Of a DNA stretch of 64,000 nucleotides, positions 8,948-24,663 are shown piece after piece (the stretch's first letter is position 1; every line of letters starts with the position of its first letter). Origin of the DNA: Syntrophobacterales bacterium (GTDB lineage: Bacteria; Desulfobacterota; Syntrophia; Syntrophales; UBA5619); contig JAHYJE010000017.1 of assembly GCA_019429105.1 (NCBI GenBank), forward strand, positions 1 to 64,000. The letters run 5' to 3'. The notes beneath the pieces were generated by a model. It did no database searches. It was not told where the DNA came from and was given only the letters and a program-made list of their open reading frames with translations. Made by a program: the position numbers and the translations under genes.

Positions 8948-9275
8948 TGCTTCCCTCCTTAACTATTATTATTTCCATCCTGTTTAAGGAAAAACAGACG
9001 TAAAATCTGTGATTTCCCGATACATTATATTCAGTGGCGCCGTATATCAATTTTCATGAAGTATTGCCACAAAAAATAAACCTTCGCTGCCGAGGAGATA
9101 TTGGCGTTCATCCTGAAATATTTTATAATTAAAATGTTGACAATCGAAATATGAAGTAGGATGTTGTCCTCGGCAATGGGCAATTAATTGATTAAGGTAA
9201 ATAGCTCTTTATAAATGCGGCAGACAGTTTATGCATGGTTGATTGCGAGGATTTTTCATGGACAAGGAGGAAAAT
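8948..9275. other. Divergent intergenic region, decarboxylase / cfa
   Basis: About 330 AT-rich bases between divergent genes. A TTGACA lies at 9137-9142 with only a weak -10 candidate (GATGTT, 9160-9165) reading toward cfa. TTTTATAATTAAAA nearby could serve either strand. I see no RNA element. Confidence 0.4.
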
Positions 9276-10610
9276 ATGGCGCCAGCAACTGCTAACCGGA
9301 ATAGTCATGAAAAGGAAAGAACCGTCCATTTGCTGGACGAGTTGTTTTGTGTTGACGAGGGGCCGCGGATCGGCGTTCGCTTATGGGACGGCTCAAACTG
9401 GCCGGGAGATGTTGCCACCTCCACAAAGATCGTCTTGAAGCACCCGGGGGCCCTGCGGGCCATGTTTCTGCCCGGGCATGAGCTGGGACTGGGCGAGGCC
9501 TATCTCTATGACGATTTCGACATAGAGGGCAATTGCGAGGAGGTATTCGATCTCGCCGAGGATTTGGCGCGCCGCACCTCCGGGTGGCGCGTCAAATTGC
9601 GGGCAGCCAAGGAGCTGCTGAGCCTGCCGGCAGAGGGCGAGCACCCTTGGTTAAAGGCTCATGGCGACGCATTTCGCCGCCCCCCGGTCAAACTTACCGG
9701 CAAACCTCATTCACAAGAGCGGGACCGCCAGGCGGTAACTTTTCACTACAACGTCTCCAACGAATTCTACAAACTCTGGCTCGATCGGAGAATGGTCTAT
9801 TCTTCCGCATATTTTCAATCGCCCAAGGAAGATCTCGATAGTGCGCAGGAAGGCAAGCTGGATTACATCTGCCGGAAGTTGCGCCTTAAGCCCGGGCAGA
9901 AATTTCTCGACATCGGCTGCGGCTGGGGGGCCTTAGTGCTGCATGCGGCAGAGCGTTACGGGGTTGACGCCACCGGGATTACCTTGTCCGAACCTCAGGC
10001 GGAACTGGCCAATGAGCGGATAGTAGCGGCGGGACTTGGCGATCGCTGCCGCGTCCTGGTTGCCGACTATCGCGAGCTTGAAACAAAGGAAGGTTATGAC
10101 GCGCTGGCGAGCGTGGGCATGTTTGAACATGTCGGCGAAGCGCTTTTGCCCGTATATTTCCGGCAGGCTTGCGACCTGATGAAGCCGGGCGGGGTTTTTC
10201 TCAATCACGGAATTGTGCGGCGCATGGGGGATGTTCCCCACGCCGGTCGAAACTTTGTTGACACATACGTTTTCCCTGATGGCGAGCTTATCCCGGTCAG
10301 CGTCACCCTGAAAGCGGCAGAAGACGTCGGGTTTGAGATTCGGGATCTGGAAAGTCTTCGCGAACACTACGCGCTGACGCTGCGCCACTGGGTGAGGCGC
10401 CTCGAAGGGGCCCACAAAGAGGCGCTCAATTATGTCGATGAGCCCACCTACCGGGTATGGAGGCTGTATATGTCCGGCTCGGCGAACGGCTTTGCCCGCG
10501 GCAGAATTAACGTCTATCAGGCCTTGCTCAGCAAGCCCGGGGCGCAGGGGAAAAGCGGTCTTCCGTTGACACGGGGCGACTGGTACCAATCAGCGGATAA
10601 GACTGTTTAA
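9276..10610 (+). CDS. cfa: Cyclopropane-fatty-acyl-phospholipid synthase family methyltransferase
   Basis: 444 residues. It transfers a methylene from S-adenosylmethionine to double bonds of membrane phospholipid acyl chains. The N-terminal lipid-binding half (about 20-130) precedes the methyltransferase fold with FHYNVSNEFYKLWLD (156-170), the SAM loop LDIGCGWGAL (211-220) and GITLSEPQ (234-241). The SVGMFEHVGE motif and the C-terminal AFARGRINVYQALLSKP match CFA synthases. The start at 9276 is preferred because a perfect AAGGAGG sits 5 bases upstream; ATG 9258 is the alternative. Monocistronic, with a strong hairpin downstream. Confidence 0.92.
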   Translation: MAPATANRNSHEKERTVHLLDELFCVDEGPRIGVRLWDGSNWPGDVATSTKIVLKHPGALRAMFLPGHELGLGEAYLYDDFDIEGNCEEVFDLAEDLARRTSGWRVKLRAAKELLSLPAEGEHPWLKAHGDAFRRPPVKLTGKPHSQERDRQAVTFHYNVSNEFYKLWLDRRMVYSSAYFQSPKEDLDSAQEGKLDYICRKLRLKPGQKFLDIGCGWGALVLHAAERYGVDATGITLSEPQAELANERIVAAGLGDRCRVLVADYRELETKEGYDALASVGMFEHVGEALLPVYFRQACDLMKPGGVFLNHGIVRRMGDVPHAGRNFVDTYVFPDGELIPVSVTLKAAEDVGFEIRDLESLREHYALTLRHWVRRLEGAHKEALNYVDEPTYRVWRLYMSGSANGFARGRINVYQALLSKPGAQGKSGLPLTRGDWYQSADKTV

Positions 10611-10756: not shown

Positions 10757-10890
10757 GTGAAATGTCCTGATGATGTCCGGTAAAAAAAGATTTTTCTGGA
10801 CGACATATTGCCCAAACATCTAATTACACGGTTCAATTATTGGTCTTGACCAAACCGGTTCTCGGCTGAAAATGTCCTGATTATGTCCGG
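10757..10890 (-). repeat. Two direct copies of GGACATNATCAGGACATTT
   Basis: On the minus strand, GGACATAATCAGGACATTT (about 10869-10888) recurs as GGACATCATCAGGACATTT (about 10759-10778), some 110 bases apart. Each copy itself contains GGACAT twice, 5 bases apart. Both lie just past the stop codon of the AlbA_2 gene. Function unknown; a protein-binding site or an RNA element at the transcript end are possibilities. Confidence 0.5.
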
Positions 10891-10892
10891 GT

Positions 10893-12287
10893 TTATTCCT
10901 TCCAGTTCCTCGCTGTCCTCTCATAGTGCGCGGCCCGTCCTTTTCCAATCAGCTTGAGGAGGTCGGCGGCTTCCAGTTCCTTTAAGTCGCGCCGAGCCTG
11001 ACGGTCGCCGACGTCACCGGCAAAACGCTTCAAATAATCGCTCAGGGTGATGGTGCTGCCAGGGTTGAGTTCGGCGAGAAGCCGGTTCTGCCGTTTGTTC
11101 AGATTCAATTCCGGCGCTTCAATCGACGCCCGGCTGTGAAGTGTGAGCGTAATCCCGTCCTCGTCCACGGCCCAGGTAGGTGCCGGAAGTCCCATTTCCC
11201 GACAGGTTTCGATCATCTTGTTAGTGCCCCGCCCGATCCGTTCCATGTAGTTCCGGATATAGAGGAAATGGGCGGTGTCCGGATTCGCGGGTATTGATGC
11301 GTGGGGCAGCCGTAATTTGTCTGCCCTCCATCCCATAGGCAGCCGTCCTGAGTTCCAAATTTCCACGCGAGCAGGATAGACCAGAACCGTCGCGCCGCTG
11401 GAAAACGAGGCATAGTCACGATGGGCAAGGGCGTTTACCAACCCTTCCCTGACGACATAATCCGGATATGCTTCCAGATTCTGGCGTAGCAATGAATCAG
11501 GGAGAAACTGAGCCGTTAACGGCGAGTTGCGATGAATGAACGCCCGCGCCTGCTCGATGACCTGCGTCACCGGCCCGTTCAGATCCGCCTGATCGAGGTA
11601 ATCTCCACCCTTGTCGGTCTGAAGGGCAAATGCCCTGACGCGGATCTGGGGGTTCCTCACGGCCGGCCGCTTACCGAAACAGACGTCGGCGGCATTTGTC
11701 AGCATGCCGCGATTCCACATGCCAAGGTCTGAAAAAACTGCCTCCGAGTCTTCCGGGTGTCGGAACTCAAAACGAGTTCCCGTCAATGCATCCTGGACGG
11801 TTCTCTGTATCTCCGATTTATCCAGATCTTCCATCGTTAATACAGGCGCGCCTCGCCGCTCCCATCGCTCAACCTCGGCGGACCGCCTCTGAAGCAGCAT
11901 CTGCAGGTCATCACCCGAAGCCGTCAAAGTGCGGGAACCACTGCGAAGGTAAACACGCTCGTTTGCCACGAAAGGGGTGTTTTTCCCTCCCGGAACGTCA
12001 ATCACGATAATCTGATTTTCACCCTGAACCTGTTCTATCCCCACAGAAAACAGCGATCTCGGCGAAATGGCCTTCATCAGGAACGAATGAAGCTCATCAA
12101 CTACCTTTTCGGCCTCTGGAATCCCCTCTACGCGCTTATTATCGTCAACCCCGATCAACAGCCTCCCCCCGCCGCTATTGAGCAATGCTGCAACGTGCGA
12201 GGCAATAATGTCCTTATCGTTCAGAGATGCCACGAATTCAAGTGTTTGGGACTCCCCCTGTTTGATCAGACTTTCGATGGAATTCAT
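10893..12287 (-). CDS. AlbA_2 (Schlafen-like) ATP-binding protein with C-terminal winged helix
   Basis: 464 residues. The N-terminal AlbA_2/Schlafen-type domain has QGESQTLEFVASL (11-23), the LLNSGGGRLLIGVDD strand-loop (about 36-50) and an RVYLRSGSRT motif. The middle carries a GHKL-like ATPase segment (REGLVNALAHRDY, GRGTNKMIETCREMGLPAP). The last ~70 residues look like a winged helix (DYLKRFAGDVGDRQARRDLKELE). Such proteins are annotated as regulators or as parts of phage-defence loci. Its ATG overlaps the DUF4062 stop by 4 bases, so the two are translationally coupled. Confidence 0.8.
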   Translation of the reverse strand: MNSIESLIKQGESQTLEFVASLNDKDIIASHVAALLNSGGGRLLIGVDDNKRVEGIPEAEKVVDELHSFLMKAISPRSLFSVGIEQVQGENQIIVIDVPGGKNTPFVANERVYLRSGSRTLTASGDDLQMLLQRRSAEVERWERRGAPVLTMEDLDKSEIQRTVQDALTGTRFEFRHPEDSEAVFSDLGMWNRGMLTNAADVCFGKRPAVRNPQIRVRAFALQTDKGGDYLDQADLNGPVTQVIEQARAFIHRNSPLTAQFLPDSLLRQNLEAYPDYVVREGLVNALAHRDYASFSSGATVLVYPARVEIWNSGRLPMGWRADKLRLPHASIPANPDTAHFLYIRNYMERIGRGTNKMIETCREMGLPAPTWAVDEDGITLTLHSRASIEAPELNLNKRQNRLLAELNPGSTITLSDYLKRFAGDVGDRQARRDLKELEAADLLKLIGKGRAAHYERTARNWKE

Positions 12288-12928
12288 ACTGGACCTCCCT
12301 TCTGCAGAGCTTTCCGTACAGCCTTTACATCGCCGAACGTATCCTTGACAAAGGCTTCGGCCTCCTGGAAGCGACGAAACTGGCTGACGGCAAAAAGTTG
12401 CGCATCTTCAGGCGATCCGAACGTCTGCACCCAGTTGCCGACACGGTCCTTATAGACCTCAACATCGCGTCTCGTGGCCATTTCATATATATCAACGATA
12501 CGGAGATCTTCGAAGATAGGCGACTTGACCAATTTCAGTTTATGACGTTTTTCTCTCGTTGTAAACCCCAGCTTGTCGAGAAAACCCCTGGCAAAGACCA
12601 CATGATCATGGGCCAGAATCCAGCGAGGCTTTTTCAATCTGATGGCTTCCCGCATTTCGTCATGGGTAATAGAATCGTCCTCCGGCTTCTCCTTACCGCT
12701 TCCATATCGCGGAAGAATGATGCCGAGAAACAGATCGCACTCCCTAACGGCAAGCTTGCAGCTCTCCAGGGCCGTGAGCTCGGGATAGACCGGCATCGTC
12801 CCTTTGTAAGACATCCATATCTCGTAGTTCATCATCTGGGCAAGAGAAGCATAGATTCGATCCAGCAGCTCCTCAAAGCCGAAAACGGCAGAGGAGACCA
12901 TAAGAATGGGTTTACGTTTCGTAGTCAT
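12284..12928 (-). CDS. DUF4062 domain protein
   Basis: 214 residues. KPILMVSSAVFGFEELLDRI at the start and the CKLAVRECDLFLGIILPRYGSG segment fit DUF4062, a TIR/nucleoside-hydrolase-like Rossmann domain often found as the sensor or N-terminal part of NTPase-type defence proteins. SITHDEMREAIRLKKPRWIL is the usual E-x-x-x-A region. It is a stand-alone domain here and is followed with a 4-base overlap by the AlbA_2 gene, so the pair probably acts as one unit. It heads this small operon; a candidate promoter with a palindrome lies about 190 bases upstream. Confidence 0.75.
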   Translation of the reverse strand: MTTKRKPILMVSSAVFGFEELLDRIYASLAQMMNYEIWMSYKGTMPVYPELTALESCKLAVRECDLFLGIILPRYGSGKEKPEDDSITHDEMREAIRLKKPRWILAHDHVVFARGFLDKLGFTTREKRHKLKLVKSPIFEDLRIVDIYEMATRRDVEVYKDRVGNWVQTFGSPEDAQLFAVSQFRRFQEAEAFVKDTFGDVKAVRKALQKGGPV

Positions 12929-13118: not shown

Positions 13119-13154
13119 ATTATAACAATAGCTTTATATATTCCGGAGCTCCGG
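13119..13154 (-). promoter_or_regulatory. Candidate promoter and 12-bp palindromic operator for the DUF4062-AlbA_2 pair
   Basis: On the minus strand a TATAAT box (13124-13119) lies 18 bases downstream of the perfect palindrome CCGGAGCTCCGG (13143-13154), which would cover the -35 position. There is no good -35 consensus, so an operator or activator site is plausible. The rest of the 303-base gap 12929-13231 shows no gene. Confidence 0.4.
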
Positions 13155-13231: not shown

Positions 13232-13969
13232 TCATTGCTTCAGTGCAAAAGCTTGCAAGTCATTTTTTATATAGTATTTTGCGCCAAGTTTCGTAAAAAG
13301 TTCTTCCGTATCGTAAAGGAATTTACCCCAGTTCACAGTTTTTTCGTGTTCTTTCATGTGGTTTAGCTTGCCGACCTTCCAGAAATTCACATACGGATGC
13401 GCCATGCGGATTACCGTAAGCGCTTGCGCGGGATCGATCACCGGTTCAAGGCTGACCCATGTAAAAATGCCCTCTTTGTGAGCATTTTTCAAAACGGTCA
13501 GCCGGTCATCCACGGTCGAGGCGAACGTTTCCCAATCCTTGCGGATAGAGTCATCGGCGAAACAAAGCGTAATGCCCAGTTGCGTGTGAGCATCCCTCAT
13601 CAGTCCCATGTCTTCCTGGATGAGATCCGCACATCCTTTGGTCAATATCTGGCTGTTCAGCCGGTGTTTTGCGACAATACCCAGCGCCTGCCGCGTCAGT
13701 CGTTCCGTGCGCTCAATCGGCTGATACGGATCACTCAGAAAGCAAAAGAGAATGCGCCGCGAATCTCCACGCAGTTTCATGGCGTCTTTTTCGAGGTTTT
13801 GCAGCACATCACGCCGCGGCGCCGCTGTCGCATGCCACTTTTCCCCTGTCGTTCGCATACACGACGGCGCATAGCAGTACCGGCAGCCGTGCGTACAGCC
13901 GCGATAAAGATTGCAGGCCAGCTCGGAGTATTCCCGCGCCCGTCCTTTTGGTTCATAGACGACATTCAT
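13232..13969 (-). CDS. Radical SAM protein, spore-photoproduct-lyase-like
   Basis: 245 residues. The cluster-binding motif is C-T-H-G-C-R-Y-C (C25, C29, C32), preceded by ACNLYRGC, as in SPL/SplB-like radical SAM proteins. ILFCFLSDPYQPIE, SQILTKG, a GITLCFADDS stretch and WVSLEPVIDP are family strands of the TIM-barrel. The start at 13969 is chosen over the longer frame because GGGAGTTTGAAC precedes it and it begins 11 bases after the TcmP stop. The usual partner of such genes in accessory DNA is a three-Cys-motif partner (TcmP) protein, as here. A decayed second copy lies at 15483-15603. The target is unknown; true DNA photoproduct repair is not implied. Confidence 0.8.
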   Translation of the reverse strand: MNVVYEPKGRAREYSELACNLYRGCTHGCRYCYAPSCMRTTGEKWHATAAPRRDVLQNLEKDAMKLRGDSRRILFCFLSDPYQPIERTERLTRQALGIVAKHRLNSQILTKGCADLIQEDMGLMRDAHTQLGITLCFADDSIRKDWETFASTVDDRLTVLKNAHKEGIFTWVSLEPVIDPAQALTVIRMAHPYVNFWKVGKLNHMKEHEKTVNWGKFLYDTEELFTKLGAKYYIKNDLQAFALKQ

Positions 13970-13980
13970 GTTCAAACTCC

Positions 13981-14736
13981 CTAAAAATGTTTGATTGCTT
14001 CCGTAGCAGCCTTCTTCCATGCATCGTATGAAACGTGAAATGTTTGTTCGGGTAGTATTTTTTCTTTTACCATCTGATTTAGCGCGGCCTTAGCGTGCGA
14101 TGCCATTACGCCATTCCTCAGGGCAAACAGATAGACATCTTTGTTTGTCTTTAAGCGATGCTCAAGCAAGGCGGACTCAAGTTCCTTCTCGAAATCTTTA
14201 ATTTTAGTCGGTTTGTCATCTTCTGGGAATAATGATGGCTTTGACGGGTCAATCCCATCCCTGTCAATATCGAAGTTCGCATCGCCGCCTCGTTTCCATG
14301 CCACCCGAAGAAATTTGTCTATGCCGAGTGGATGAGCTGATCCAAAAACCAATCCATAGACATTCGAACCCTTCTTGATGGAAAACGGACCAAGATAATA
14401 CTCGGTGTCTTTCGGCAGCCAGCGACGATAAGCATCCGTAACAATCCGATGCACATTGGTTCCGTTCATCCTGAAACAATCCTCTTTGGTAACAGGTAAA
14501 TTATCCAGAATCCCCTGCGTTGTTCTGAAACGGTTGATGATGGACGAGGAAATGAAAAATATGAAATCCGTCTTGGGAAGTTCTACAATGCCTTGAAAGA
14601 TAGATTCCGTAATTTGATTCACACCATTCTGAGCAAGAAACAGAAGATTGGCACAGCGGCCTTTCATTTTTGGGCGCCATTTCTCAGATGCTTCCTTGAA
14701 GTCGCTATTCGATGTTTCAAAATAGACGCTTGGCAT
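13981..14736 (-). CDS. TcmP-like (three-Cys-motif partner) protein, apparently N-terminally short
   Basis: 251 residues. CANLLFLAQNGVNQITESIF followed by DFIFFISSSIINRF corresponds to the central strand and D/N-Q-x-G region of TcmP proteins, and the C-terminal half (AFKKGSNVYGL-type strand, winged-helix-like end) fits too. The N-terminal ~100 residues with the usual D-x-F-A-G-P-G motif are missing. The frame upstream (14737-14870) runs into a stop about 34 codons earlier without showing that motif. So it is either a short variant or a 5'-truncated gene. It is coupled to the radical SAM gene 11 bases downstream. Confidence 0.6.
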   Translation of the reverse strand: MPSVYFETSNSDFKEASEKWRPKMKGRCANLLFLAQNGVNQITESIFQGIVELPKTDFIFFISSSIINRFRTTQGILDNLPVTKEDCFRMNGTNVHRIVTDAYRRWLPKDTEYYLGPFSIKKGSNVYGLVFGSAHPLGIDKFLRVAWKRGGDANFDIDRDGIDPSKPSLFPEDDKPTKIKDFEKELESALLEHRLKTNKDVYLFALRNGVMASHAKAALNQMVKEKILPEQTFHVSYDAWKKAATEAIKHF

Positions 14737-14867
14737 TGCCTCTATTTGATCGGCAATACACGCTCTCGTTTCCCATGAATAATAAGTGTGCAGGGGTCGT
14801 TGATAGTGAAAGATGATCTACCTTCATGAGACACTCCTCTGACGACTTAACTCTCCTAACGGGGTAA

Positions 14868-15467
14868 TCAGATCAACTCACCTTGATTGCCGGTATCAAT
14901 GTCCATTACTCCTTGCACCGGTTTTCCCTTTCTATAGGCATCCCATTTCGATTTAAACTCGGCATCCAGCAATTCTTTATAGGTCGTAACTGAGGCGTCT
15001 ATTTGGTTTATTTCCTTCATTGCTATCACGCGGTTCAGGATTGCGCGTGATACCAGCGCGAGAGGAATGCTGGTATCAAAAGTAGCGATTTTTTTAGAAC
15101 GACATCCCCCACATAAAATACTGGCGCGGTGATCTTTATCTTTTATTTCAACTAAATGAAGATCTTGTATGGATGAGCAACTGGCACACGACGGAAACAT
15201 TTTTTCAGAATCAGGATCATTCGAGAAATCTAACTCCGTTTGACGATCGTCGATAACTTCACCGGGGCCTGATCCGTAAGTAAAAACCTCACCGGAACGA
15301 TAAAGATCTAACAAAATAGCCCGTCGAAAAGGCTGTTCAGGTGTTATGCCTGCTTTGAGAATCTTGTCTTTCCCGTCCGGAGTAAGATGAAACGTGATGA
15401 TATTTCCCCGGATGGCGGTTTTAATGTAATATTCTCCTTTATCTTTGTATTTATGTAGTACGGGCAC
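14868..15467 (-). CDS. Unknown protein with a CxxC...CxxC zinc ribbon
   Basis: 199 residues, not recognised. The GTG start at 15467 follows TGGAGGAAGATT. The first ~90 residues look like beta-rich/helical sequence with HLTPDGKDKILKAG. A C-A-S-C (about 94-97) and C-G-G-C (about 119-122) pair forms a probable zinc ribbon. The remainder is helical with IDASVTTYKELLDAEFKSKW. It lies between the TcmP gene and the remnant of a second radical SAM gene. A regulatory or nucleic-acid-binding role in this accessory block is only inference. Confidence 0.6.
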   Translation of the reverse strand: MPVLHKYKDKGEYYIKTAIRGNIITFHLTPDGKDKILKAGITPEQPFRRAILLDLYRSGEVFTYGSGPGEVIDDRQTELDFSNDPDSEKMFPSCASCSSIQDLHLVEIKDKDHRASILCGGCRSKKIATFDTSIPLALVSRAILNRVIAMKEINQIDASVTTYKELLDAEFKSKWDAYRKGKPVQGVMDIDTGNQGELI

Positions 15468-15482
15468 AATCTTCCTCCATTT

Positions 15483-15603
15483 TTGATATAGTATTTTGCG
15501 AAAATTCCCAGCACCCGCCGTGTCAGTCGTTTCGTGTGCTCAATCGGCTGATACGGATCACTCAGGAATCAAAAGGGAATACGCCGCGAATCGCCACGCA
15601 GTC
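15483..15603 (-). pseudogene. Decayed second copy of the SPL-like radical SAM gene
   Basis: About 120 bases closely match two separate parts of the gene at 13232-13969. The left edge (TATAGTATTTTGCG) equals its extreme C-terminal codons near 13267-13280. It then jumps to the segment at about 13664-13773 (TCAATCGGCTGATACGGATC is identical). Both parent sites contain TTTTGCG, so an internal deletion of about 390 bases between short direct repeats explains the remnant. The rest of 15468-15727 shows nothing else. Confidence 0.85.
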
Positions 15604-15727
15604 AAGCTTTTCACCAAGTCCGATTTTCAGAGCGATTCCCTAAAAAATAACGAATTATAAATCAACAAGTTATGCACGCATTTTCAGGTGAAATTTAAAA
15701 TGGCGCAAATAGACAAGGGCCATCCTT

Positions 15728-16345
15728 TTACAGCGAGATGCCTGCCGCTTTCTCTGCGAAACGCCGGAATGTGCAGGAGCGTTTGAGCCGATTGAAATCA
15801 GGCATAGCTTTAGCAATCTTTAGGGCGTCGCGAAAATCCTCATAACAACGATGGGCGCCCAGTTCCTGGTTAAAGATTTTAGTGAGGCAAGTCTTTGGTT
15901 TTCTGACCCTCTCAGGGTCTTTATAATTTGTCAGCCTTCCCACCCGATGCGGATGTTTGCAAGACGCTATGAAACTCCGTATCGCCCTTATATCTGCTAA
16001 CAGCCAGGCTTCAAGCTCTTCCTCTATGCAGACAAGGGCTACCTTGCTCAGCGGCACATTGCTGGATTGAAGCGACGAAAATATTTTCTGTCTGTCATTT
16101 TTTCGGCAAGGTTTGATATGTTTTTCCCGCCATGCCGGGTAGAGGTCCCAGATAATGACCACCTTGTCACAACTGTTAACCAATGTGGATGCAACAAGGC
16201 CGCAGTCCTCCAATAGATTCGTTTTGACATCCATATATTGAGAGACGATTTCGACACCAGGCCTTAATTTCTCCAGAAAATAGCGACACACCTGGCCGTC
16301 AGCCCCACCCCGCCCGCATTCAAAGATTAAGCCTACTCTCATCAT
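15728..16345 (-). CDS. DUF4276 family (TOPRIM-like) protein
   Basis: 205 residues. The N-terminal VGLIFECGRGGADGQVCRYF fits the acidic start of the family. VVIIWDLYPAW is the D-x-D-like strand, CIEEELEAWLLADIRAI the conserved E-x-E-A-W-L-L-A-D helix, and KPKTCLTKIF plus a C-terminal FNRLKRSCTFRRFAEK complete the pattern. DUF4276 proteins are usually encoded next to an AAA_21 ATPase and are proposed TOPRIM-type effectors like those of OLD/PARIS/Abi systems. The ATG follows the stop codon of the ATPase gene with no gap (TAAATG), so translation is coupled. Effector role is inference. Confidence 0.85.
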   Translation of the reverse strand: MMRVGLIFECGRGGADGQVCRYFLEKLRPGVEIVSQYMDVKTNLLEDCGLVASTLVNSCDKVVIIWDLYPAWREKHIKPCRKNDRQKIFSSLQSSNVPLSKVALVCIEEELEAWLLADIRAIRSFIASCKHPHRVGRLTNYKDPERVRKPKTCLTKIFNQELGAHRCYEDFRDALKIAKAMPDFNRLKRSCTFRRFAEKAAGISL

Positions 16346-17473
16346 TTAAGCCCGTGTTAGGTTTCCCATTGTGTAGAGCTTTCCAGGGGCAAATTTTCTT
16401 GCCCATTCAACTAAATCCTTGTTGTCTGCCGGTCTGCTGAAAACGGGGGAACCTTCCTCATCCCGTTCAACAACAACGATCTGCGAAAGCGGCAGAAGGT
16501 CCAAAAGATACGGTGAATGGGTCGTGGCAATGACCTGGCCCTTTCCCGTTTGAACGAACGTGCGAATTTCATTGATGATGAGATGAATTGTCCGCGGATC
16601 CAGACCGTTCTCAATTTCCTCTATAACTATGACGGACGGAGAATTAGGATGGCGGAGAAGACACAAGAGAGCCAAAACGCGTAGGGTCCCCTGAGACAAT
16701 AACCAACCGGGCAGCTTATCGGCAAGGCCTTTTTCCTTTAAGGTCAAATAAAAATTTCGCTCCAATTCCGAGGTTATGGCCGGTTGCAGATCATCGGCGT
16801 AGGGCAGAACGCTTTGCAATGTTTCGATGATGCCGCGGAATGTCGAAACATCCGCATTTCTTATGCTTTCAAAATACTCTGCGATGTTGGCGCCGTCCTT
16901 CGATAATTCCACTCCCCCTTTTGTTCTCTTCTGAAGAACGGGATACTGCATCTGCTGTGGCAGAATGGTAAGGAATTGCCATGAGGAGGCAAGCATCTGC
17001 AGACGTTTATCACTACTTATTCTGTATTCAGAGAAAGAATCTCCCATCAAACCAATTTGGGGGCCTTCCTCAGGGGACTTAACCTTGAGTTCTCTGATGT
17101 CGATAGTGTTGCCTTGGCGATCCATATCGAGTAATAAATTAACTTCCACGGGAATATCACTGACAAGCCCGCGACGAAAAGTTCCTTTGATTTTAAAAGA
17201 CATAGGATTAGAGGTCTTTCTATTCTTCTTCAATTTATGTTCAACCGCCTTGTTCCAGACGTGTTCAAAACCCCGCCACGGCTGAATAGCCGCGTCTATC
17301 CCGCTAAGAACAATTTGTTGAAACATCTCGAGTCCTTCGATCAAGCTGCTTTTTCCGGAGCCATTATTGCCGATAAAGACTGTGAGCGGAGTGAAGCGGA
17401 TCACGCCGCTATCGCGAACGGCTTTAAAATTACTCAGGCGGAAAGATTGCAACGGCAATTTGGGCACACTCAT
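16346..17473 (-). CDS. AAA_21 / SMC-like ATPase of a defence operon
   Basis: 375 residues. FRLSNFKAVRDSG (11-23) and the Walker A GNNGSGKSS (35-43) open the protein. LSQGTLRVLALLCLL is the signature-type helix, VIVIEEIENGLDPR the Walker B, and ATTHSPYLLD the H-loop, the layout of ABC-type AAA_21 ATPases (OLD/RloA-like without nuclease domain). Its start overlaps the methylase stop by 4 bases (17470-17473) and its stop abuts the DUF4276 start. It is thus the third gene of a tightly coupled four-gene operon and probably senses infection or controls the DUF4276 partner. Confidence 0.9.
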   Translation of the reverse strand: MSVPKLPLQSFRLSNFKAVRDSGVIRFTPLTVFIGNNGSGKSSLIEGLEMFQQIVLSGIDAAIQPWRGFEHVWNKAVEHKLKKNRKTSNPMSFKIKGTFRRGLVSDIPVEVNLLLDMDRQGNTIDIRELKVKSPEEGPQIGLMGDSFSEYRISSDKRLQMLASSWQFLTILPQQMQYPVLQKRTKGGVELSKDGANIAEYFESIRNADVSTFRGIIETLQSVLPYADDLQPAITSELERNFYLTLKEKGLADKLPGWLLSQGTLRVLALLCLLRHPNSPSVIVIEEIENGLDPRTIHLIINEIRTFVQTGKGQVIATTHSPYLLDLLPLSQIVVVERDEEGSPVFSRPADNKDLVEWARKFAPGKLYTMGNLTRA

Positions 17474-20400
17474 TTTATTAACCCCCTTTCTACGTCCCGG
17501 TAGGCATTGGCGGCAGCAATACGCTCCGGGTCAGGCAAAAACAATTGGGAAAGTACATACAAGAATTCTTCTTCCGTCAAGCCGTACAGGTGGGCGACGA
17601 GACCATCGATCTGGGCCTCCAGCGGCAAGGTGAAGGCATCGGGATTCTGCCGTTTTGCGGCGATAATCTGGTCAACAAGTGTGATAAACTGCTCCTGAGC
17701 GGCCGGCAAGATTTTTTTTATCGGGATAAACGAGAGCGGCTTGTTAAAATATTCCCTGACTTTTCCCTTTGGTTTGCCGATAAATCCATAAAACCAGTCG
17801 ATAAGCTTCGAATTCAGCAAGGATAAAACATATTTGATGTTTATCTTTTTATCAGTAATTACAATTGCTCGAATATCGCCACCATCGTTGAAGTATTGCT
17901 CATTATCAAAGGCAAAACGATTTCCCTCAGCCCTATAGGGGACAACAATTTTTTCCTTGGCGTCAAATATTTCTTTATTTCGGGGCCGATCGAATCTGTA
18001 CCAGGGATATAATCCGCTTGCCACTTCATTCCGGTCTTGTAACGTGTCTTCATGCAACTTTAAATATGAATATGCCTGTGGGTATTTTTTTATATCCGTA
18101 TGATTATCCACATAAATCAAACAATTTCCTCTGTCGCGAATTGCATATCTTCCAATATCGCCATTCTTTAAATTCCTTCTTAAAACCTCCTTTTCAATCC
18201 CCATTTCCTCTGCAAACTTGTTTGTAATTGTGAAAACAGTATTCTTCCCGGATTTCGATCCTTGTTCAATTCCTGCAATATCTCCAAGCAAGACGGAATC
18301 TTTTTTTAGTTTTTCAATAATCGATGAAGCCCGTTGATCTGCTATAATCCAATCATCTTTTAAATCCTCCCGTTTGATCGCAAAGGATCGTAGGTGTTTT
18401 TCAATGTCACTTGATGTTATTTTCTCATCCGAGGCTGCCTCAAAAAAGATGATTTCGCTGGGCATTGTCCCTTTGTAAGAAAAAGAGATGCAAGTATGAA
18501 TACTTGCCGCATCAAATACCATGCGATCCTTGAAATTGATTGCCTTGGAAATATGGTCTTTTAGATAACGCCTCAAATTTCTGGCGTACTCGTTGCCGAG
18601 GAAATAGTTGGAAGTAATTAACGCGCAACAACCGTTTTCCCGTAAATGTTCGATACCCAGATAAATGAAGTAGTAAACAATATCATTATATCCGGTATGA
18701 ATAACCTTGTAATGATCTGCCAGATAATTATATAGCTCTTTACCGATGGTGCTGACGTTAAAATATGGAGGATTGCCGATCACAATATCGAAACCATCCT
18801 GGACATTGAACATAGTTTCCATGTCGAAGAATCCGGCGGCATGGATGGGGTCGAAGGGGTTCCAGGAGGCGATCAGTCCGGCGTTTGTCGTGCTGTATTT
18901 GTTTTCGATAAGCGCCTTCTTTAACTCTTCCCTTTTTACTCTGTCGGCCTGTCGCAGTCTCTTTTTATCAGTGTATTTACGCGTATAGAACATCCTCTGC
19001 CGCAAATTCTTCAGCTCATCCTCAATAGTATAAACCTTGCCGCCTCCCAATTCGAGTTCCTGCTGGGGCTTGTCGATCCCGATAAGAGTGTTGGCAGCGA
19101 CGAATTTGGTTTCAAGATTGGGCAGGGCCAGGATGTTGCGGTTAGGCCGCTCGTCTATCACCTTCTGGTCGACAATTAGAGAGATAAAAAACCGGAGTTT
19201 GGCGATCTGAACGGCGATGTTCTGGATATCCACGCCGTAGATGCAGTTTTCAATCAAAAAGAGCTTGCGGGTATAGTCCAGTTCATGCCGATTGCTGCTG
19301 AAAGCCTCTTCGATTGCCCGGACGCGCTGCTCAACATTCTCCAGTGTCCTTCTGCGGATATCTTCATCCTCCATTTTTTCCGCACGTTGCCGGTCGCGCA
19401 TAGCCTTATCTAATTGGGCCTGTTCCCACTGCTTGTTATAGGGGTCGAGCTTTCCCAGAATGAAGACCATCTTGTGGAGAATACCCATCGGAAAAGCGCC
19501 GGAACCGCAAGCGGGATCGAGAATTTTACAGTTATTAATGGCCTCGATGAGGACGTTCACCTCTGCCGTGTCTGAATCCTTTTCATCTTTAAATAAATGT
19601 CCAGTCTCATTATACGAGAGAAGATGACTCAGTTTGTCATGAACGGCTTTTTTCTCCCCTGGAGAGAGTTTTTCAGGATTTGAAGACGATGCCGCTTCTT
19701 TATCGTAAAATTCTATTAATTGGTTTTCCAAATAATGCAGCAGACTTTCATCCACCATGTAGTTAACAATTTCGCGGGGAGTGTAAAAGGAACCAGTCTG
19801 CTTGCGTGCGGTTGTCTGAGTTTCGGGATTATAACTTGCCAGAAGATTTTCAAAGACCTTTCCCAGAAGTTCCGGGTCAAGAGCAATTTCCTCTTCCACC
19901 GGCGTGTTTTCCTCAATGGTAAACTTGTACTTTTCCAGAATGCGTATCAAGCCATTGACAGTGACATCCTTGTATTTAGGACTGCCATAATCTTCTGATA
20001 GATCAATATGGGTGTTCTCAGCAAAGAAAAGTTCATCAGGCACAACTGGCTGTTTGGTGAAGGTCGAAGAAAAACCGTCGATGCGAGTTTCTACATTCTT
20101 GCCATCGATGGTCTCAAAGGTATCGAGGCACTCGAAAAGACCGCCGTTGAGAAAAGGTATATCTTCAAAATACCTTATTGCCTCACCTTTTTCCTGAAAA
20201 AGGTCCTTATATCGAAATGCTGTCGGGATAGAATATTCCTCGGATACGCCTGATGCGCTTTTCTTGTTGGTAATAAAATGTCTACTGTCGGCAACATCCT
20301 TATTCATGTCCGTATTCAGGGTGGCGAAGAAGAGGTTCTGCAGAATGGCCTTATAATAACTGCTCGGATCACCGTTTTTGCTTAGTATTGGAGATTTTAC

Positions 20401-21276
20401 CAGTATTCTTGCCAGCTCTGCTGTGTCAAAAAGAGTTGCCGAAATCAGGTTTTTTTCCTTCAAAAACCAGCAAAAAATGAGGCGAGTCAGCAACCGAATA
20501 ACATTAAGTGAGCAATTATGATGTTCTGCCAATTTATGGGGATTTGGGTAGAGGACCCGTTTAACAGCCCAGAAGTGCCAGTCTGCAATTTCTTTGAAGA
20601 AACGCTTGTTTAATTCCAATGTGTCCAGTGTTTGCTGCCAAGCCCGTTGGAGTTCGACAAAATTTGTGAAGCCTTGACGATGGTGAAGTTGCTCGAAGGA
20701 TAGATCGAAAAGTATTTCGACATGTCCCCGGTGCGGATTTTCAAAATTTATATCCTTAATGAGGGTGATCTTTTCCAGAACATCTTTGATTTCATCCCGT
20801 TTGTGCTGTCGGCGATTAATGACCGAGAGCGTAAGAAATTGGCCATATTTGAACAGAATCATTACCGGCATCGGGAACATGTGGTTCACTTCGCGTGTAA
20901 TATTGCTCAGTTCCGTGCGGCTGTATTGGTCTTTGACTAATCCGATGGTGAAGAACAGGTAGGTCTCAATTACTGTGCGGTCAACTTTTACTGTATCAAA
21001 CAGGGAAATTTGCTTGCGCACCTCTTCCTTGGAGAGCTGAAACAGCAAATCAACATATTCCCAGTCTTTCACCAAAGCTTTTTCTTCATTGAATTTAGCT
21101 TGAGTATCAACGAAAAATTCTTTGAATGTGGCATAGTTGGGTTTATCGAAGGGCGCCTGGCGTTCGGTATTATAGCCAAGCGTTTGAAAAAGATTGAGGG
21201 CGTTGGCAGACAGTTGTCCGTCGCTAAAGGAACCAAGGGAAGTAATAATTTTTTGTTTTACGTCCGGATTTGCCAT
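17470..21276 (-). CDS. Eco57I-type adenine methyltransferase / specificity protein
   Basis: 1268 residues. The N-terminal helical part (1-480) is followed by GSFYTPREIVNYMV (495-508), SAM motif DPACGSGAFPMG (587-598), YGVDIQNIAVQIAKLRFF and the catalytic NPPY (835-838). The last ~250 residues look like a TaqI/type I target-recognition domain. I see no PD-(D/E)xK nuclease, so cutting may depend on the PLD-helicase encoded just upstream, whose stop is 5 bases before this start. It should methylate N6-adenine at a specific site to mark self DNA. It overlaps the ATPase gene by 4 bases. Confidence 0.92.
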   Translation of the reverse strand: MANPDVKQKIITSLGSFSDGQLSANALNLFQTLGYNTERQAPFDKPNYATFKEFFVDTQAKFNEEKALVKDWEYVDLLFQLSKEEVRKQISLFDTVKVDRTVIETYLFFTIGLVKDQYSRTELSNITREVNHMFPMPVMILFKYGQFLTLSVINRRQHKRDEIKDVLEKITLIKDINFENPHRGHVEILFDLSFEQLHHRQGFTNFVELQRAWQQTLDTLELNKRFFKEIADWHFWAVKRVLYPNPHKLAEHHNCSLNVIRLLTRLIFCWFLKEKNLISATLFDTAELARILVKSPILSKNGDPSSYYKAILQNLFFATLNTDMNKDVADSRHFITNKKSASGVSEEYSIPTAFRYKDLFQEKGEAIRYFEDIPFLNGGLFECLDTFETIDGKNVETRIDGFSSTFTKQPVVPDELFFAENTHIDLSEDYGSPKYKDVTVNGLIRILEKYKFTIEENTPVEEEIALDPELLGKVFENLLASYNPETQTTARKQTGSFYTPREIVNYMVDESLLHYLENQLIEFYDKEAASSSNPEKLSPGEKKAVHDKLSHLLSYNETGHLFKDEKDSDTAEVNVLIEAINNCKILDPACGSGAFPMGILHKMVFILGKLDPYNKQWEQAQLDKAMRDRQRAEKMEDEDIRRRTLENVEQRVRAIEEAFSSNRHELDYTRKLFLIENCIYGVDIQNIAVQIAKLRFFISLIVDQKVIDERPNRNILALPNLETKFVAANTLIGIDKPQQELELGGGKVYTIEDELKNLRQRMFYTRKYTDKKRLRQADRVKREELKKALIENKYSTTNAGLIASWNPFDPIHAAGFFDMETMFNVQDGFDIVIGNPPYFNVSTIGKELYNYLADHYKVIHTGYNDIVYYFIYLGIEHLRENGCCALITSNYFLGNEYARNLRRYLKDHISKAINFKDRMVFDAASIHTCISFSYKGTMPSEIIFFEAASDEKITSSDIEKHLRSFAIKREDLKDDWIIADQRASSIIEKLKKDSVLLGDIAGIEQGSKSGKNTVFTITNKFAEEMGIEKEVLRRNLKNGDIGRYAIRDRGNCLIYVDNHTDIKKYPQAYSYLKLHEDTLQDRNEVASGLYPWYRFDRPRNKEIFDAKEKIVVPYRAEGNRFAFDNEQYFNDGGDIRAIVITDKKINIKYVLSLLNSKLIDWFYGFIGKPKGKVREYFNKPLSFIPIKKILPAAQEQFITLVDQIIAAKRQNPDAFTLPLEAQIDGLVAHLYGLTEEEFLYVLSQLFLPDPERIAAANAYRDVERGLIK

Positions 21277-21281
21277 TCACA

Positions 21282-24200
21282 TTACCTCAATACCAGCCAC
21301 GTTATCAGCTCAAAGTTATCAATTTCATTTATTTGTTTCGATCTGGGGATGATGAGCGCGCTTCTGTCGCTCAACAATTTCTGAGCGCCACGCTTTTTAA
21401 ACACAATGATTATTTCCGCAACCGCCTTTTTCAGGAGATCGGCATATTTATCCATCCGCTGCCCATTATCGGTCTCGGTGTTGAAAAACTCGCATAGAGC
21501 ACGGTAAGGCTCCGTTCGTCCCTGGCATAAAAGCCTGTATATTTCCAGTATCTGTTTGGCATTGGTGTAATTATACCGTACTGTGCCGTCATCGCGGATG
21601 TAAACGAGAAAATATGGCTGGAGGGGATTTATCGCTTCGTTTCCATCCGTCACACCTTTTTGTCTCAGGCAATAAAAAGCCCCGGGCTTGATAATTTCCC
21701 TCTCCGCCGGAGAAAAACTTCTGTTGTCGCTTGCAATTGAAGCTTCCTCTGCCGGCGAAGGTATGACTGCATAGAGGCCGAACGGCGCATTTTCCAGCTT
21801 TTGCCGATTGGCATTAATGTAACTGAGCAGTTCAATGCGGAAGTCATCGAGTGTAAAATCGGTAAGCGATACCGTTTCATCCATATCTTCCAGATCGAGA
21901 ACCTCCTCCTGAAGTTTCTTGAGTTGGCGATTACGATATTTCAAGTCTTCAGATATTAGGTCTTCAAGCTGCTCCGTGTTGAGAATATTGTCTTCCCCGG
22001 TCGCCGTCATATCCACCAACGCCATGCGGGCTTCGACCCGTTCCTTGAGATTGATATAACTATCGAGGTCTTTTGTAGGCCAGAAATTAACCAATTGGAT
22101 TTTTGCGTTTATACTTCCCAGGCGGTCAATGCGGCCAAAACGCTGGATGATGCGTACCGGATTCCAATGAATATCGTAGTTGATAAGAAAATCGCAGTCT
22201 TGCAGGTTCTGACCTTCGCTGATGCAGTCGGTGGCGATCAGGATGTCTATTTCCCCTTGCTGCGGCGCAGCTTTCATCTTTGCTCTGTTTTTGGATACTG
22301 GCGAGAAATTGGTTAAAATGCTGTCATAATCGCTTTTGCCGAAGGTCGTTTGCGTATATGTTCCCGTAATCAGGGCTGAATTAAGTTTCAAATCGGTTTT
22401 TATCCAACTTGATAAGTTGTCATGAAGATATTGAGCGGTATCAGCAAAAGCGGTAAAAATAAGGACTTTATTATTTCCGTTATTCGTCTGGCGCGCGATT
22501 TTGTCTCCAATGATTCTTTTCAATTCAAACAGTTTTGCATCCCGGTCCGGCGTCACGGCAAGGGCGTTATTATACAAATCTACAAGCGCGGCTTTATCCC
22601 GGCCTAAGTCCTCAAGCCATTCTTTAAGCTTCAAATCGGCAAGATCAAACTTGAGTTTTTTCCCTACCTGCCATTGATCGTGCTCTTCTCCGTTCTCTTC
22701 AAGTTCCTCTTCATCCGGTTCGGGCGCCTCCAGGGCTGTTTCCTGAGCAGGGATTTTCTGCTTCATGAAGGAATCAATCCTTTTCTCCAGGACTTCTATT
22801 TTTTGAATTGTCCTATCCAGCGAAATCTCAAATGATTCAATCGAACTCTCCAGCCTTTTGAGGTAATTAACCTTCATCATGCCAATCAAAAAGCTTTCAC
22901 GATCGGCCTGCTTGAAAGCCAGAACTTCCGTTTTAGCTAATTCTTCGTACTTCTGCTCTTTTTCTTCTAATACATAAGCGGAAGGATTGAATATGGAGAA
23001 TTTGTATTCTAAAATTTGCTTATTCAGACGGTCGTAGGTGGGAAATCTGCTCTTTAAATCAATGACCGGGTAAACTGAAGAAGGTTTTAGTCTTTCCGGA
23101 AATGAGCCGATCATTTCAAGTTTGTAGAACGATTTTATATGCTTGCGACTGCGCGCGATGGTCAATTCATCAAGCAGTTTGAAAAAAGCCGAATCGAGCC
23201 GCTCCAGCAAGTCTTTAAGGTTTCGGTGCGGATTCCTCTTGTGATCCGCCCAGTTGGTAAAATTTGTCTGGGCCGTTTTGAGGGTCAGGGAAATGTCTTT
23301 AATGCCGCAAGTCTCAAGCAGTGCGTCGTCCCTTCCCTCGGTAATCAGGGCAATTTGGTTCCTTAAATCCCGCAACGTATTATTGACGGGCGTCGCCGAC
23401 AGCATCAACACCCTTGTTTTTACACCGGACTTGATTATCTTTTCCATGAGCCATTTGGCCCGATTCATTTTACTGGTTCCGTCCTCCTTTGCCCTCTCCA
23501 CAGGATTGCCTCGGAAGTTGTGCGACTCATCAATGACAACAAGATCATAAGCGCCCCAATTGAAGTTGCCGAGTTCAACGCCGTTCGCATCGGACCTCCC
23601 GATCTCTCTCCCCATGTCCGTATGATAGAGGACTGTGTAGTTAAACCGATCTTTAACAAAAGGATTGAGGGCATGATTTTGGCCGGCCTGATAAATGGTC
23701 CAGTTTCCGGTAAGCTTTTTAGGGCAAAGAACGAGAACGCGGCTGTTTAAAAGCTCAAAATATTTGATAACAGCAAGGGCTTCATAGGTCTTGCCGAGCC
23801 CGACGCTGTCGGCAATTATACAGCCGTTGAGTTTTAATATCTTGTTGATAGCGCCCTTAACGCCGTCTTTTTGGAAGTTGTACAGGGTATTCCATATCTC
23901 ACTTTCAAAGAAGCCGGTTTTTTCGTTAAGCAGTCCTCCTTTGGCCTGGTCATCGAGATAGTTTTCAAAAATATGATACAGCGTTTTGAAATAAATAAAT
24001 TCAGGCTCATTCTCAGCAAAAAGCTGGGTAAGATACCTTAAAACATCATCTTTTACATCTTCTACAAGCCCGGTTGCGTCATTCCAGATGCCGTCAAACC
24101 ACTGCTTTAATTCCTGCCGGTCCCGGTCGCTATCGATTATCATGTTCAGTTCTATATTGTTGTTTCCACCGAGGCCAAGACCATTGACGGTAAAGTTTGA

Positions 24201-24620
24201 GCTGCCGACAACCGCCTTCTCAATGCCGCTTTCCTGAATTACATGGTACATTTTGCCGTGCAGAAAATTGGGCTTAACCATTGAGCGGACATCGACTTTT
24301 TCCTTAATCCATTTTGAACAGGCGGCCGCAATTGATTTTTGCGTCAGCCTTTGTTCAAGGGGGATAATCAATTGATCATCTTCTATTTTAAAACTTCTAT
24401 GATTATTTTTACTGGGATCTATCGATTTGATAAATGTTGGCTCGCCGAATAAAAACCGCAGCCGTTCTATTTTCTCAAGCTCCGCTTGCAAATGATGATA
24501 AGCGTAGATCGTGAAGTATGCGGAGACAATGGAAACGCTTGAGCTGCCTTTTACAATTTCCTTTAAGAAATCGCCTACATTGCCGTACTGATGATTATCT
24601 CTGATAGAGGCATTTGTCAT
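21282..24620 (-). CDS. PLD-domain SNF2-type helicase/translocase
   Basis: 1112 residues. The N-terminal phospholipase-D-like domain (1-170) has one HxK half-site, HGKMYHV (121-127), with GSSNFT (139-144), the form found in nucleases of this superfamily. The SNF2-type motor follows: Walker A DSVGLGKT (271-278), DESH (364-367), SATPVNN, then the second lobe with TDCISEGQNLQ and QRFGRIDRLGS. A helical insert (about 560-680) carries acidic EEEL repeats. ATG 24620 is preferred to the TTG at 24647 because a GGAG lies 10 bases upstream. It is the first gene of the operon and probably translocates on and cuts unmodified DNA. Confidence 0.92.
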   Translation of the reverse strand: MTNASIRDNHQYGNVGDFLKEIVKGSSSVSIVSAYFTIYAYHHLQAELEKIERLRFLFGEPTFIKSIDPSKNNHRSFKIEDDQLIIPLEQRLTQKSIAAACSKWIKEKVDVRSMVKPNFLHGKMYHVIQESGIEKAVVGSSNFTVNGLGLGGNNNIELNMIIDSDRDRQELKQWFDGIWNDATGLVEDVKDDVLRYLTQLFAENEPEFIYFKTLYHIFENYLDDQAKGGLLNEKTGFFESEIWNTLYNFQKDGVKGAINKILKLNGCIIADSVGLGKTYEALAVIKYFELLNSRVLVLCPKKLTGNWTIYQAGQNHALNPFVKDRFNYTVLYHTDMGREIGRSDANGVELGNFNWGAYDLVVIDESHNFRGNPVERAKEDGTSKMNRAKWLMEKIIKSGVKTRVLMLSATPVNNTLRDLRNQIALITEGRDDALLETCGIKDISLTLKTAQTNFTNWADHKRNPHRNLKDLLERLDSAFFKLLDELTIARSRKHIKSFYKLEMIGSFPERLKPSSVYPVIDLKSRFPTYDRLNKQILEYKFSIFNPSAYVLEEKEQKYEELAKTEVLAFKQADRESFLIGMMKVNYLKRLESSIESFEISLDRTIQKIEVLEKRIDSFMKQKIPAQETALEAPEPDEEELEENGEEHDQWQVGKKLKFDLADLKLKEWLEDLGRDKAALVDLYNNALAVTPDRDAKLFELKRIIGDKIARQTNNGNNKVLIFTAFADTAQYLHDNLSSWIKTDLKLNSALITGTYTQTTFGKSDYDSILTNFSPVSKNRAKMKAAPQQGEIDILIATDCISEGQNLQDCDFLINYDIHWNPVRIIQRFGRIDRLGSINAKIQLVNFWPTKDLDSYINLKERVEARMALVDMTATGEDNILNTEQLEDLISEDLKYRNRQLKKLQEEVLDLEDMDETVSLTDFTLDDFRIELLSYINANRQKLENAPFGLYAVIPSPAEEASIASDNRSFSPAEREIIKPGAFYCLRQKGVTDGNEAINPLQPYFLVYIRDDGTVRYNYTNAKQILEIYRLLCQGRTEPYRALCEFFNTETDNGQRMDKYADLLKKAVAEIIIVFKKRGAQKLLSDRSALIIPRSKQINEIDNFELITWLVLR

Positions 24621-24663
24621 CGGATTTTTACTCCAATCATTGCACAAAAAAAGTATTCCATAT

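Follow-up and report, generated by a model that had tools for sequence, protein, structure and literature searches.

A coupled gene pair and its domains

The window analysed here is a stretch of 64,000 nucleotides from a Syntrophobacterales bacterium (contig JAHYJE010000017.1, positions 1 to 64,000), and the subject of this report is a pair of genes on its minus strand, which encode a DUF4062 protein and a protein that joins a SLFN_AlbA_2 domain to a GHKL ATPase and a winged helix-turn-helix (wHTH). An original prediction, made from the sequence alone, had proposed both open reading frames together with a four-base overlap between them, and all of these were found in place. The features of the pair are given below, L009 being its nearest relative among the loci described in the next section.

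12284..12928, minus strand: DUF4062 gene, first of the pair (214 amino acids; PF13271 at residues 10-95, E 7e-14)
10893..12287, minus strand: SLFN_AlbA_2 - GHKL ATPase (HATPase_c_4) - wHTH gene, second of the pair (464 amino acids)
12284..12287, minus strand: ATGA stop/start overlap of four bases, translational coupling, read directly from the sequence
12141..12254, minus strand: stretch of the second gene with the AlbA_2 nuclease motifs (E12, E17 ... D49; GESQTLEF ... GVDD), which the window protein retains intact
11225..11447, minus strand: ATP-binding motifs of the GHKL domain in the second gene (E281, N285, H289-R290-D291-Y292, N312-x-G314, G352-R353-G354)
10869..12928, minus strand: limits of the cassette by homology (blastn against L009), running from the first gene's start codon to a point 24 bp beyond the stop codon of the second

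The DUF4062 gene is the upstream member and is separated by a gap of 303 bp from a neighbouring radical SAM gene. Its product scored 52.1 bits against the PF13271 profile, for which the gathering cut-off is 24.7 bits. The AlphaFold2 model of the protein (predicted local distance difference test score, pLDDT, 84) displayed strands and helices in TIR order, with E91 on the third helix (helix C, SITHDE motif), and the top PDB matches found by Foldseek were TIR domains (4c6t and 7xoz) and nucleoside deoxyribosyltransferases/DNPH1; a remote match to the Thoeris protein ThsB (9vyl) was also found. The putative catalytic glutamate, E91, was invariant in all homologues (85/85). It aligned with the E97A site of KpSwz (PDB 10wc) in a consistent register, within a profile match that was itself weak (E 0.35), and is the equivalent of KpSwz E97 and TEP1 E1008. 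No separate AUX or C-terminal sensor domain is present in this protein of 214 residues, those past the TIR-like core forming helices inside or after the fold.

DUF4062 proteins are described as TIR-like NADases in a 2026 preprint (PMC13174449), in which the Klebsiella protein KpSwz (Swarozyc) binds the phage portal, depletes NAD+ and protects E. coli by abortive defence, with E97 needed. The products of KpSwz and of the TEP1 DUF4062 domain are reported there as ADP-ribose and nicotinamide, TEP1 yielding no further ADP-ribose derivatives. The TIR-like nature originally proposed for the DUF4062 protein agrees both with the predicted fold and with this published biochemistry, and the window protein is predicted to be a stand-alone TIR-like NADase.

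The 464-residue partner matched PF04326 SLFN_AlbA_2 at residues 12-121 (65.3 bits, E 9e-18) and PF13749 HATPase_c_4 at residues 300-383 (E 1.5e-12). Its AlphaFold2 model (pLDDT 89) matched 3lmm over the full length, while the N-terminus resembled the Schlafen (SLFN13, SLFN11 and SLFN14) and SAMD9 tRNase domains, and histidine kinase ATP-binding domains were matched as well. A profile search returned the SLFN family, 3lmm and the C-terminal wHTH of the Fic protein 4rgl. The kinship of AlbA_2 with Schlafen proteins, as first suggested, is thus upheld by both kinds of search. In PADLOC 2.0 no system model spanned both proteins; the DUF4062 protein was unmatched and the Schlafen protein matched a prokaryotic Argonaute (pAgo)-fusion model (E 4e-16) and weaker pAgo-like models. 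The pAgo reading was rejected, as there is no PIWI domain here; some long pAgos bear N-terminal AlbA_2 fusions (PMC6299218), which probably explain the match. Two other labels were set aside, namely 'RecG-like helicase' for HATPase_c_4, the fold being GHKL, and the 'Fic family protein' annotation of an Acinetobacter partner, which arises from the common C-terminal wHTH.

Inheritance and mobility of the cassette

Across bacteria and archaea the pair is passed on as a unit. When 84,980 species genomes were scanned with an alignment of DUF4062 proteins alone, 132 relatives were found, of which the best 80 were kept and 52 weaker ones left outside the set. In all 80 of these best loci an AlbA_2-GHKL gene lay directly downstream of the DUF4062 gene on the same strand, so that chance is not the explanation of the pairing. 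The junction was a four-base overlap in 57 of 84 homologous pairs, the window excluded. The hosts belong to 16 named phyla, methanogenic archaea among them, and since many of the loci come from isolates (including Pseudomonas, Acidovorax, Methanoculleus, Chlorobium and Thorsellia), binning errors in metagenome-assembled genomes do not account for the pair. Within the 395 genomes of the window's phylum, the DUF4062 protein had just two close relatives, both followed by a Schlafen-GHKL protein. As a control, 30 AlbA_2 loci were sampled from related genomes, and in none of them was there such a DUF4062 neighbour, so that pairing is not a general property of AlbA_2 proteins. In L107, the nearest 'solo' outgroup, no partner gene was present upstream. 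A DNA search of 5,426 E. coli genomes gave no close relatives. The source genome encodes eight AlbA_2 proteins and two DUF4062 proteins, and its AlbA_2 count is above that of most relatives.

When a tree was built from the GHKL region common to these proteins, a single branch (support 94) separated all of the 66 paired partners from solo proteins and fusions. The distance matrices of the DUF4062 and partner proteins were correlated with r=0.84 (permutation maximum 0.17), and dN/dS values of 0.06 and 0.12 for the two genes indicated purifying selection on both. A deltaproteobacterial copy was 87% identical to that of the methanogen Methanoculleus, and the cassette therefore crosses domains. Against L009, a single blastn match covered 2077 columns at 78% identity (about 2.06 kb) and neither flank matched. 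The L009 cassette lies inside a BREX (bacteriophage exclusion) operon, with a PglX-type methylase upstream and PglZ and BrxL downstream, whereas the flanks in the window are unrelated to these. Homology confined to two genes with unrelated flanks is cassette behaviour.

Another reading is a toxin-antitoxin-like addiction module of mobile elements, in which the DUF4062 protein would be the toxin and the Schlafen-GHKL-wHTH protein its neutraliser and autoregulator. The coupled genes, with the toxin-like gene first and a partner that ends in a wHTH, would suit such a module, as would two plasmid-borne copies, one of which adjoins VapBC and RelBE-type pairs. However, the partner is twice as large as the toxin and carries an invariant ATPase, unlike ordinary antitoxins, and the copies are mostly chromosomal, in restriction-modification (R-M) and BREX loci. 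Searches with either gene returned the same two records among 72,556 plasmids, and no match to the cassette was found among 50,697 phage records; IMG/VR held one damaged copy. We thus consider an addiction module very unlikely.

Genomic neighbourhood and predicted mode of action

Among 92 upstream neighbour proteins, 23 matched N6_Mtase and 20 matched HsdM_N, while Methylase_S was matched by 14 of 81 downstream neighbours. Of 78 loci, 27 had an HsdM homologue at a distance of at most 8 kb. From the background in the window's phylum, where 319 Mb contained 104 HsdM_N matches, about 0.005 would be expected per such stretch (about 0.5%). In the gammaproteobacterial loci L053, L063, L070, L072, L079, L080, L083 and L086 the cassette is embedded in a type I R-M operon, and in L053 at least, hsdM-like genes stand on either side of it. 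The pairing was thus neither restricted to the source genome nor tied to metabolic genes, outcomes that the original prediction had named as counting against it; it was present in 80/80 loci and enriched beside type I R-M and BREX genes.

Given this linkage, a guard role in the manner of PrrC is a serious possibility by analogy. The restriction complex of the host operon would silence the cassette, and a phage anti-restriction protein that disables the complex would fire it. PrrC is a tRNA-cutting nuclease silenced by its linked type I R-M enzyme and switched on by an anti-restriction peptide (PMC2610378), and PrrC/EcoprrI and RloC, like the present cassette, have a cell-arrest effector encoded in or beside a type I R-M operon, although they belong to unrelated families (an ABC ATPase with a HEPN-type anticodon nuclease). 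The frequency of HsdM nearby is in keeping with such a guard, as is the position of the cassette, which in several gammaproteobacteria is flanked by hsdM and hsdS-type genes and in L009 by pglX and pglZ-brxL. On the other hand, the pair lacks adjacent hsd genes at many loci, that of the window included, and the partner systems vary (type I R-M, BREX or none), so that the linkage may merely reflect clustering in defence islands. A guard may also be a trigger for the mechanism favoured below rather than a full alternative to it, and taken as a full alternative we regard it as improbable.

The genes could also be an ordinary regulator pair with no defence function. AlbA_2-HATPase_c_4-HTH proteins have long been named transcriptional regulators or RecG-like helicases, as in Pfam names. 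Such a role, however, sits poorly with the patchy, horizontally moving distribution (including the copies shared by a deltaproteobacterium and a methanogen), with the R-M and BREX enrichment and with the invariant NADase-type glutamate, and we find it barely credible.

The two proteins differed in what their homologues retained. In the partner, the GHKL residues E281, N285, H289, R290, Y292, N312, G352 and G354 were invariant in 82/82 complete homologues. At the nuclease columns, E12 was kept in 77/85 homologues, E17 in 76/85 and D/E49 in 66/85; the window partner keeps the whole triad (E12, E17 and D49), to which E205/E210/D248 of SLFN13 are the equivalent catalytic residues (PMC5862951). The glutamate pair was no longer intact in 11 of 83 rows, which on the tree required 11 separate changes and hence at least 11 losses, and a raw Fisher test of E91 loss versus glutamate-pair loss gave p = 3e-4, uncorrected for relatedness. 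In L009 the nuclease site is changed (E17V and DD48-49SK). The partner at L008:3029-4351, on the Acinetobacter plasmid pC9_4, lacks the Schlafen active-site segment, its N-terminus being missing, and would be a natural nuclease-dead version. Between the window and L009, identity was 61% in AlbA_2 and 92% in the GHKL core, AlbA_2 being the fastest-changing domain.

The pairing and its context support the two-gene sensor/effector module first proposed. A reading in which DUF4062 senses and Schlafen kills is likely the reverse of the actual roles, because the active site is constant in DUF4062 but has been lost repeatedly in the Schlafen nuclease. With moderate confidence, and judging from sequence, we favour a mobile two-gene abortive-infection cassette in which the DUF4062 NADase would be the effector and the Schlafen-GHKL protein an ATP-dependent sensor and regulator, usually with a second, dispensable RNase activity. 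As DUF4062 has no sensor domain of its own, the coupled AlbA_2-GHKL-wHTH protein would keep it silent and detect infection, the trigger being either a phage component or the state of an adjacent R-M or BREX complex. An ATP-dependent conformational switch of the GHKL domain would then free or assemble the NADase, and DUF4062, once permitted to oligomerise, would hydrolyse NAD+, leading to NAD+ depletion and a stop to phage production. In most members, that of the window included, the intact AlbA_2 triad would probably add tRNA or rRNA cleavage as a second effector, while in lineages with a dead nuclease site AlbA_2 may serve solely as a recognition or scaffold domain.

Three observations weigh against this abortive-infection cassette. 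In two thirds of the loci no HsdM could be recognised within 8 kb (many of the contigs are short). The profile match between the DUF4062 family and KpSwz is weak, the assignment coming from the Pfam family, the motif register and the predicted fold. Finally, the glutamate pair is kept in about 87% of members, and the RNase activity may thus matter more than is allowed for here.

The layout of the pair, in which a small TIR-like enzyme stands alone next to a larger protein, is that of Thoeris systems. A Thoeris-like mechanism could thus be envisaged, in which DUF4062 senses infection and makes a nucleotide messenger from NAD+, upon which the Schlafen-GHKL protein, as receptor and effector, cuts tRNA or rRNA. 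Retention of the glutamate pair in most members and the remote fold match to ThsB are consistent with it, and PMC13174449 suggests mechanisms beyond NADase activity for DUF4062 operons and reports some DUF4062 genes in operons with diverse enzymes. However, the pair has been retained where the nuclease site was lost (in at least 11 lineages), AlbA_2 is the domain that changes fastest, and the products reported for KpSwz and TEP1 are ADP-ribose and nicotinamide, as mentioned above. In addition, fusions link DUF4062 to GHKL-wHTH with no AlbA_2. In composition too the pair departs from Thoeris (the TIR protein ThsB with ThsA), since DUF4062 replaces TIR/DUF1863 and the partner is AlbA_2-GHKL-wHTH rather than SIR2/SLOG, Macro or membrane domains; Pfam found no ThsA-type SIR2/SLOG domain in either window protein, and PADLOC gave no Thoeris match. 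We therefore regard a messenger mechanism as rather unlikely.

The fusions concern 17-18 other DUF4062 proteins in the window's phylum, in which DUF4062 is fused to the same GHKL-wHTH part and replaces AlbA_2; the motif glutamate was present in all of them where readable. The fusion loci (L128, L129, L132-L139, L141, L142 and L144-L147) are common in this phylum and apparently uncatalogued. A second form of coupling, phylogenetically distinct from the window pair, consists of an AlbA_2-GHKL gene followed by an overlapping gene for a DUF4062-GHKL-wHTH fusion, and was found on another contig of the source genome (L143) and in another genome (L149).

L143, source genome, contig C11 near 1354-1608: genes 3-1151 and 1132-2874

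From the fusions and the L143/L149 arrangement, Schlafen and DUF4062 proteins have been joined at least twice, with GHKL-wHTH as the common part, and since DUF4062 takes the place of AlbA_2 in the fusions, this part resembles a switch that different N-terminal effectors can share and exchange. A wider generalisation, which we hold to be possible yet doubtful, is that the GHKL-ATPase-wHTH switch defines a widespread, uncatalogued immune class that gates, in cis or in trans, exchangeable effectors (a Schlafen RNase or a TIR-like NADase). In the two-gene form a single switch protein would command both NAD+ depletion and tRNA cleavage and would monitor restriction or BREX complexes.

Surroundings in the window and relation to known systems

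The pair had been placed at the edge of a defence island, and it does end a block of defence-type genes (13232-24647) comprising a TcmP/PDC-M30A-like protein, a radical SAM protein, an HKD-Snf2 helicase, a type IIG-like methyltransferase, an AAA_21 ATPase and DUF4276. Metabolic genes flank the region on either side:

9243-10610: CMAS methyltransferase
25048-26826: aldehyde ferredoxin oxidoreductase

At 13232-14736 the radical SAM (DUF5131-like) gene overlaps the TcmP/PDC-M30A-like gene, which carries a GMT-wHTH domain, and these form another candidate defence pair. The HKD-Snf2 helicase (PADLOC C3a139), type IIG-like methyltransferase, AAA_21 ATPase and DUF4276 genes form one operon (15728-24647), which resembles the HKD-helicase and methyltransferase portion of Type-2 BREX-related systems; no DUF499 ATPase was found among the scanned genes. 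A promoter with a perfect palindrome had also been proposed upstream of the pair. The palindrome exists (CCGGAGCTCCGG, 12 bp, 13143-13154), but there was no promoter match there. As about 15 palindromes of 12 bp are expected by chance per 64 kb, and as the upstream homology to L009 stops at the start codon, neither palindrome nor promoter was accepted as part of the module.

Each half of the cassette is already known, from the Swarozyc DUF4062 NADases and from the bacterial Schlafens, and it is probably the obligate pair that has been little described. With Swarozyc the window protein has in common PF13271, the TIR-like fold, the glutamate at the same place (E91 here, E97 in KpSwz) and an occurrence in defence islands. 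KpSwz, however, is one protein with a C-terminal HTH/winged portal-sensing domain, whereas here DUF4062 stands alone and its partner is separate, and the pair was therefore not filed as Swarozyc. The main text of PMC13174449 names no Schlafen or AlbA partner, and the pair may appear in its supplementary figure. PMC12839542 describes Schlafen RNases that are joined to a minimal histidine kinase and a wHTH and lie near BREX, and cites a preprint by Taboada et al. (2025) on bacterial Schlafens in defence. These share the AlbA_2-GHKL-wHTH architecture and the R-M/BREX neighbourhood of the present partner, but in the description given there they are backup RNase effectors and a DUF4062 partner goes unmentioned; the paired clade, in contrast, forms its own branch and some of its members lack the nuclease glutamate pair. 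Human SLFN11/13/14 and rat SLFN13 resemble AlbA_2 in the fold of the nuclease domain and in the equivalent positions of the Glu/Glu/Asp triad, while the protein described here has a single AlbA_2 lobe joined to a GHKL ATPase, has no helicase domain and is encoded in a prokaryotic operon.

DUF4062 NADases and bacterial Schlafens have each recently been tied to phage defence, and both have human counterparts, TEP1 and NWD1/2 for the former and SLFN11/13/14 for the latter. The cassette shows the two families as obligate partners in one lineage across bacteria and archaea, and the DUF4062-GHKL fusions suggest that the GHKL domain is their common switch. It thus permits a direct test of how TIR-like and Schlafen effectors switch on, and of the Schlafen fold as a sensor rather than a nuclease.
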